Positions 3,317 through 4,319 of a stretch of 24,082 nt of DNA are shown piece by piece. The DNA comes from a virus, in IMG/VR virus record IMGVR_UViG_3300020439_000080, positions 1 through 24,082 of that record; one strand, written 5' to 3'. A program made the translations under genes and the position numbers. How positions within the stretch are numbered: the stretch's first letter is position 1; each line of letters opens with the position of its first letter. The notes beneath the pieces were generated by a model. The model saw only the letters and a program-made list of their open reading frames with translations, did no database searches and had not been told where the DNA came from.

Positions 3317-3670
3317 TTATTTATTAGTTATTAATTTAGTTTCACTTCTATATGCAAGACGTTTATCTTTTTGGTGGTCTGCAACACCTTCATTATTCCA
3401 AATTATCCCACGCCATAATTTAAGCCATTTATAATAAGTTTTTGCATTAATGCTAAAGTCCTCTGTATTTCTAACACCATTCCAAAAAGCCTCTCTGACA
3501 TCTCTAAAAGATAACGTTGAAAAACTTTTCTTTAAATCAGAGGCTAAACTTTGAGCCATTAAAACTTTTGTTTTTGCATCTATGTTATGTTGACCAAGAT
3601 CAAGATATGTTTTTGATAGTAATTCAACACACATTTTAGTCAATTCAGCTTCACTTATTTTTTTTATCAT
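3317..3670 (-). CDS. hypothetical protein paired with the replication initiator
   Basis: This 117-residue protein is helical and soluble. The middle 'LSFRDVREAFWNGVRN' and 'INAKTYYKWLKLWR' resemble small proteins encoded beside initiators in Bacteroidetes prophages. The ATG at 3670 is inside the 3' end of the initiator gene (20-nt overlap). Initiator and helicase-loader genes are frequently adjacent in phages, so a helper or loader role is a reasonable guess. However there is no P-loop, so it is not a DnaC-type ATPase. No family is named with confidence. Confidence 0.6.
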   Translation of the reverse strand: MIKKISEAELTKMCVELLSKTYLDLGQHNIDAKTKVLMAQSLASDLKKSFSTLSFRDVREAFWNGVRNTEDFSINAKTYYKWLKLWRGIIWNNEGVADHQKDKRLAYRSETKLITNK

Positions 3671-4319
3671 TTTCTTGTATTTGTTTTAATATTTGCATTG
3701 CTTCATTATGTGATTGTAAATGCTTATCTACTTTGCTTATTCCAACGCTGTTTAAAGCCCATTTAGATTCGTTTTTAGCCCATGTTTTAAGCCTTCTTGA
3801 TGTTGACCATGTTTTCATGGTATCTTTTTTTAAAACGCCTTTTTTTGTAGGCTCAGACCAATATTCAAAAAAATCAGTTAACATTTCTTTTGAGTAATTT
3901 TCAAAAGCCATAACCTCATTAAAAAATTGATTTTTACTGTTATCTTTATTAATTTGATTATTTATTATATTATTACTTACTTGTGTTCGATTTTCCGCAG
4001 TCGGAAAAACCGCAGTCGGATTATCGCACTTCGGTGATTCAAATACTATATAATTAACGCCAATAAACATTCCCTCTTTTCTAATTTGTTCTCTTTCTAC
4101 ATATCCATTTTTTATTAGCTCATTCATTGTTGTTCTTATTGATGCTTTGCCTTCTTTTAATATAGCATCTAATCCATTAATTGATAATTTCCAAGAATCA
4201 CTAAAACTCAATAACATTGCTAATAAGCCTTTTGCTTTTAAAGACAACCTTCTATCTTTAAAAATACGATTACAAATAGTAGTGTAATCTTTGCTTTTTA
4301 TTACTCTAACTATGTCCAT
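3651..4319 (-). CDS. winged-helix phage replication initiator (replisome organiser-like)
   Basis: This is a 222-residue protein. Residues 1-93 form a winged helix-turn-helix of the type found in phage replisome organisers: 'DRRLSLKAKGLLAMLLS', 'ELIKNGYVEREQ' and 'GVNYIVFE'. Residues 96-130 are a low-complexity linker (PKCDN-PTAVF-PTAEN then Asn-rich). Residues 131-200 form a C-terminal helical domain with 'FFEYWSEPTKKG' and 'TSRRLKTWAK', often seen at the end of such initiators. The linker is encoded by three 15-bp repeats followed by an AT-rich tract, a layout like the origin within lambda O and Gram-positive replisome organisers. The protein probably binds those repeats and recruits host helicase. 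It starts directly after the TAA of the HTH_39 gene (TAAATG). Confidence 0.8.
   Translation of the reverse strand: MDIVRVIKSKDYTTICNRIFKDRRLSLKAKGLLAMLLSFSDSWKLSINGLDAILKEGKASIRTTMNELIKNGYVEREQIRKEGMFIGVNYIVFESPKCDNPTAVFPTAENRTQVSNNIINNQINKDNSKNQFFNEVMAFENYSKEMLTDFFEYWSEPTKKGVLKKDTMKTWSTSRRLKTWAKNESKWALNSVGISKVDKHLQSHNEAMQILKQIQENDKKNK
3916..3989. other. AT-rich tract beside the iterons; candidate DNA unwinding element
   Basis: This coding segment for the Asn/Ile/Lys-rich linker of the initiator is close to pure A/T over about 70 bp, with runs such as taatttgattatttattata. It lies immediately next to the three 15-bp repeats at 3990-4034. In lambda and related origins an AT-rich stretch beside the iterons melts first. 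The unwinding role is inferred from position and composition. Confidence 0.5.
3990..4034. repeat. three tandem 15-bp iterons, candidate replication origin
   Basis: Three contiguous 15-bp units on the plus strand are attttccgcagtcgg, aaaaaccgcagtcgg and attatcgcacttcgg. The first two share ccgcagtcgg exactly; the third is a degenerate copy keeping cgca and tcgg. Each unit encodes five residues starting with Pro in the initiator linker (residues 96-110). These GC-rich cores stand out in an AT-rich gene. Their position inside the gene of the probable origin-binding protein, next to an AT-rich tract, matches known phage origins. Confidence 0.65.

Follow-up and report, generated by a model that had tools for sequence, protein, structure and literature searches.

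The window, that is, the whole 24,082-nucleotide stretch of viral DNA analyzed here, carries on its minus strand a gene for a 222-residue replication initiator, in which a short array of 15-bp direct repeats (iterons) follows the region encoding the N-terminal domain (Table 1). An earlier note on this DNA, made from its letters alone, had recognized a winged-helix initiator in this open reading frame (4319-3651), and the comparisons bear this out. The protein matches the Pfam family HTH_36 just short of the curated cut-off (E=3.9e-5) and PHROGs 4707, 186 and 428, annotated as 'replication initiation protein' or 'DnaD-like helicase loader', with E values of 1e-15 to 1e-17. Moreover, tblastn with the protein retrieves many phage initiators, including rep of TP901-1 (annotated in its record as 'replication protein, experimental'), to whose product the N-terminal domain is 36% identical (tblastn 2e-10). 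The lambda O family gives no Pfam match at E<=0.1, and PHROG 345 ('O-like') has an E value of only 0.012, where other PHROGs reach 1e-17. The designation 'lambda O-like' proposed earlier thus holds for the layout of the gene and fails for homology of the protein, which matches HTH_36 and other initiator PHROGs instead.

Table 1. Position of the initiator gene and of the features within it (window coordinates)
Feature	Position	Strand	Basis
Initiator gene, HTH_36-type replisome organiser, 222 aa	3651..4319	-	ORF, Pfam, PHROG, TP901-1 Rep homology
Winged-helix DNA-binding domain, residues 1-95	4035..4319	-	AlphaFold2 block-mean pLDDT 73-93
Codon for wing residue Q78, candidate specificity residue (tentative)	4086..4088	-	Q with G3/C8, R/K with A3/T8
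Codon for wing residue F85, second candidate specificity residue (tentative)	4065..4067	-	F with G3, I with A3
Iteron unit 1, degenerate, CCGAAGTGCGATAAT (PKCDN)	4020..4034	-	sequence, alignment with relatives
Iteron unit 2, CCGACTGCGGTTTTT (PTAVF)	4005..4019	-	sequence, alignment with relatives
Iteron unit 3, CCGACTGCGGAAAAT (PTAEN)	3990..4004	-	sequence, alignment with relatives
A+T-rich tract, candidate DNA unwinding element	3918..3987	-	87% A+T; homolog comparison
C-terminal domain, residues 130-222	3654..3932	-	family conservation; low-confidence helical AlphaFold2 model

In the AlphaFold2 model, the N-terminal domain consists of helices at residues 27-38, 47-53 and 58-70 and of wing strands at 74-81 and 84-92, and is followed by a linker (residues 99-131) modelled as disordered. 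Among PDB entries, the modelled protein matches generic winged helices, weakly in every case; one of them is 5kbj, whose title describes a Rep-DNA complex. A search of solved structures by sequence gave only weak MarR-like and Lrs14-like matches, and a protein search of genome contigs with the family alignment found no relatives. The C-terminal domain, presumed to recruit a helicase or primosome, belongs to no recognised Pfam family and does not match the TP901-1-type C-domain; a RepA_N domain is likewise without a Pfam match in the protein at E<=0.1. No helicase or loader was matched, since the C-terminal domain is of no recognised type and the 24-kb record is possibly a fragment. A 117-aa gene on the minus strand (3317-3670) overlaps the end of the initiator gene; it has no noteworthy Pfam, PHROG or NCBIfam match, and by its position and size it could encode a helicase loader.

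The iteron array and the A+T-rich tract

Initiator residues 96-110 (PKCDN-PTAVF-PTAEN) are encoded by three 15-bp units (4034-3990, minus strand), downstream of which the gene continues with a degenerate stretch and then the A+T-rich tract. The earlier note had placed the three units at exactly these coordinates, each encoding a P-x-x-x-x peptide, and had described a core present twice plus a degenerate copy; indeed, the core CCGCAGTCGG occurs without mismatch at only two sites in the 24 kb, both in the array (units 2 and 3). With two perfect units and one degenerate unit, the window array is below most homologs, in which four units are commonest and three are found in 16 of 72. A repeat search reported no direct repeats of at least 12 bp in the window, where the exact iteron repeat measures only 11 bp; the repeat signal within the window is short, and its real significance comes from relatives.

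The tract of about 70 bp described previously as nearly pure A/T is real, but its purity was overstated: the best 70 bp are 87% A+T, a value that ranks in the top 0.6% among 70-bp stretches of the window, and uninterrupted A/T extends there over 19 bp at most. Across homologs, mean A+T content is 76% in the 60 bp after the array and 60% elsewhere in the gene, and the difference has this sign in all 72 genes compared. The tract was also considered as a DnaA-trio-like element, a reading that was dropped because a trinucleotide period is expected from codons anyway. GC skew is uninformative for the window, as nearly all of its genes lie on one strand.

Conservation of the repeat as DNA

In the close family of the window initiator (twenty members from viral contigs), the iterons form a hypervariable island between conserved domains: the mean amino acid difference is 0.62 there, 0.18 for the N-domain and 0.11 for the C-domain. 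Individual members carry their own units, e.g., CTGACATCACAAAAC (L009), CCAACATTGGATAAT (L017), CCACATGTGGATAAT (L018) and CGGTTAACCGATAAC (L016), always at 15-bp spacing, and unit number varies by whole units, L013, L014 and L017 lacking exactly one. Alignment of related genes had been suggested as a check in the earlier note, and the outcome is the one predicted there: repeat spacing is kept while the peptide varies. The arrays of L006 and L007 (near gene residues 96-110) have a chimeric look, with a window-type unit (CGACTGCGG) beside an L009-type unit (CTGACATCACAAAAC or near), which suggests either recombination or an array in transition from one iteron type to another.

The same period extends to distant homologs (96 non-redundant genes out of 268). 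DNA identity at lag 15 is 0.493 in the linker versus 0.283 in the N-domain, and the linker shows further peaks at lags 30 and 45, with all other lags at or below 0.33. Alignment of the arrays by expectation-maximisation, started blind to positions 2, 3, 8 and 9 and retaining 72 arrays, yields the consensus CCR-N4-YGG-AAAAY with a 15-bp period. Of the 105 position-pair covariations in these arrays, those of the dyad pairs 3-8 (z=14) and 2-9 (z=11) are the strongest. Among the 72 gene-equivalents, 28.9 have G-C at pair 3-8 and 25.1 have A-T; positions 2-9 are often non-complementary in the CAA..TAG class. Among 18 independent pairs of genes differing at position 3, position 8 changes the same way in 15, the opposite way in none and not at all in three, on a tree that excludes wing and iteron columns and in which most branches are unsupported; restriction to supported branches left 3 pairs, too few for significance, and the test with unsupported branches added is the weaker one. 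No extra dyad covariation was found among units within single genes, so the covariation is between genes. It is the pattern expected from a dimer that reads both half-sites with the same residues, and from it we infer a dimer. Synonymous codons are identical between units in 489 of 589 cases versus 262 expected, for which recent duplication could be an alternative source.

Reading frame separates the DNA from the peptide. The units lie in frame 0 in 69 of the 72 arrays and in frame +1 in three (L080, L122 and L133), so that PxxEN is read from iterons in frame 0 and xDxGK from those in frame +1. In L080 and L122, the C-domains that follow the offset iterons are in frame and homologous to those of other initiators, which excludes a sequencing slip as the source of the +1 frame; a frame-0 reading of the L122 iterons would meet a TAG. 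Moreover, when 2.9 million viral contigs were searched for the iteron pair exactly as it stands in the window, eight contigs matched. Four belong to the window family, three hold copies of a single unrelated gene, and the eighth is from an unrelated GC-rich phage (L313). The initiator of L313 was judged HTH_36-like by inspection of its sequence by eye; its gene contains two copies of TTTTCCGACTGCGG, both in the +1 frame (SDCGF-SDCGK). In the unrelated gene, which is GC-rich (L314:6562-6586, L315:10848-10872 and L317:2579-2603), the pair is apparently due to chance in a repetitive coding region.

A generic three-unit scan of the same 2.9 million contigs, which used DNA patterns only and no protein information, found 116 arrays, of which 110 directly follow an HTH_36-type domain and lie within the frame of an initiator. 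Of these 110, 99 are in frame 0, 11 in +1 and none in +2, a frame that would encode a repeated R-x-R-K linker, which may be the cause of its absence. In a bacterial and archaeal collection, 55 of 76 three-unit matches fall in HTH_36-type initiator genes (Clostridia, Bacilli, Actinomycetes and others). Taken together, these comparisons indicate that the repeat is conserved as DNA and not as peptide, the P-x-x-x-x linker being largely a by-product.

Two observations accompany the scans. Iteron arrays followed by an A+T-rich tract also occur alone, at L321:11904-11943 (with flanks) and L458:350-389 and, on the minus strand, at L477:808-847, L479:2450-2489 and L437:276-315; at these sites no open reading frame was found, nor was a winged-helix gene detected within 1.5 kb upstream, and second origins, decoys or remnants are possible identities. 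One of the 110 initiator arrays, L343 (8783-8822 and upstream, minus strand), is counted only with TGA read through: its family initiator gene has about ten in-frame TGA codons, often at positions where relatives have Gly, and TGA may stand for glycine in this phage, as it does in code 25.

The iteron sequence may be matched by the wing of the N-domain. The best associations with iteron position 3 are those of F85 (13.5 independent pairs in favour to 1.4 against) and Q78 (11.4 to 0.1), the next-best N-domain columns having 6 to 8.5 pairs in favour. Within the window family, Q78 is found in 9 of 9 G3/C8 genes and R78 in 6 of 7 A3/T8 genes (the exception is L018). A hold-out set from the DNA-only scans points in the same direction without significance (Q78, p=0.20; F85, p=0.49), the CCA class numbering 12. 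The link between these wing residues and the iteron sequence is therefore put forward as a suggestive hypothesis.

Proposed origin, alternatives and known systems

The array with its A+T-rich tract is best read as an intragenic iteron origin with an unwinding element, bound by a dimer of the initiator, to which we assign a probability of about 0.87. The winged-helix N-domain would bind 10-bp imperfect palindromes of the form CCR-N4-YGG (here CCGACTGCGG), probably as a symmetric dimer, and these palindromes recur every 15 bp in the DNA that encodes the initiator's own linker. Occupancy of several units would then melt the A+T-rich tract beside them, and the replicative helicase would be recruited by the C-domain. 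The units and their period, the covariation of the dyad, the independence from frame, the A+T-rich tract, the variable iterons and the homology to an initiator mapped by experiment are computational results; that a dimer binds, that the tract melts, that the helicase is recruited and that the origin is active in the window phage is what we infer.

The strongest competitor, in which the iterons serve self-repression or limitation of copy number and replication starts elsewhere, is unlikely. As a binding-site reading it explains all comparative data equally well, and it could appeal to the second origin that SPP1 has away from its initiator gene (PMC6316719) and to the solo arrays of some genomes. 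However, the A+T-rich tract lies on the same, downstream side in all 72 homologs, which an operator would not need, and no further exact copy of the core exists in the 24 kb. The repeats of TP901-1 and Tuc2009 have, in addition, been determined to be ori (PMC8965321), and an HTH_36 domain with its origin segment replaced that of pSK41 in pPR9 and supported replication (PMC5703833).

Even less probable is selection at the level of the peptide, whereby a proline-rich PxxxN linker would be maintained for mechanical reasons and the DNA repeat would follow from coding and tandem duplication. Frame 0 and a P at unit position 1 are kept in most homologs, and some matches in the genome collection are unrelated proline-rich proteins that fit the DNA pattern. 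Nevertheless, iterons in the +1 frame yield unrelated peptides (TEVGK in L080, GLSNV in L122, SDCGF in L313), the G3-C8/A3-T8 covariation has no peptide reason, and arrays with A+T-rich tracts exist outside open frames (L321, L477 and L479). Residue 5 of the unit, moreover, alternates between N (AAT) and F (TTT), a radical change in the peptide that is A+T-only in the DNA. That the array is a short functionless repeat in an A+T-rich gene is scarcely credible: its exact repeat of 11 bp is below what the repeat search reports, but only 1 of 200 dinucleotide shuffles contained an exact, GC-rich 10-mer pair at a lag of 10-30 bp, and nearly all homologs have iterons at the homologous position.

The intragenic origin may belong to a wider scheme, namely, a widespread initiator family with a readable origin code, in which the iteron co-evolves with wing residues Q78 and F85, diversifies fast between close relatives and defines replication-specificity groups predictable from sequence, with solo arrays as second origins or decoys; we hold this tentatively, at somewhat less than even odds. 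Few phages have an experimentally mapped origin. A motif defined by DNA alone, 110 of whose 116 viral matches lie inside the initiator gene, would make it possible to locate origins from sequence for many uncultured phages as well as plasmids and integrative elements. It also accounts for the common PxxEN / QLNTN linker of HTH_36-type initiators as a shadow of origin DNA, and it makes a change of replication specificity testable, as iterons differ between phages with nearly identical flanking domains. The generality of iteron, dyad and frame independence was not found stated in the literature searched, which covers older phage papers thinly and leaves novelty unproven.

Several known systems share this layout. 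In SPP1, direct repeats and an A+T-rich unwinding element lie within the initiator gene (gp38 and oriL; PMC6316719), as they do in the window. The ori-lambda has palindromic iterons and an A+T tract in the middle of the gene of its dimeric initiator O (PMC7466680); the likeness is one of layout, since the window protein is outside the O family and the lambda iterons are 19-bp imperfect inverted repeats, in contrast to 10-bp palindromes every 15 bp. By analogy, the window origin would work like ori-lambda without homology to O. The RepA protein of pSK41 (RepA_N family) combines a winged-helix N-domain, an in-gene origin and a dispensable linker peptide (PMC5703833), and a Rep-DNA complex, 5kbj, is among the weak fold matches; RepA shares domain type and layout with the window and differs by its RepA_N domain. 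The plasmid pPR9 has a DNA-binding domain of the same Pfam family as the window protein (HTH_36, pfam13730), which moves together with the origin as one module ahead of a pSK41-type C-domain (PMC5703833); its RepA_N-type C-domain and its plasmid nature set it apart. Of the same kind as the window initiator are TP901-1 ORF13 (Rep) and Tuc2009 ORF16 (Rep2009), which bind direct repeats within their own genes that constitute ori (PMC8965321), in agreement with the Gram-positive replisome-organiser layout described in the earlier note. TP901-1 Rep has a homologous winged-helix N-domain, and its gene carries CCAGATTCCGATTTT, CCAGATGTGGCTTTT and CCAGATGTGGGAAAT at the place of the window's iterons, i.e., three 15-bp units right after the N-domain and then an A+T-rich tract. 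The iteron class (CCG..CGG in the window, CCA..TGG in TP901-1) and the C-domain differ between the two. The window array is a well-supported candidate for an origin within the initiator gene of the TP901-1 kind.
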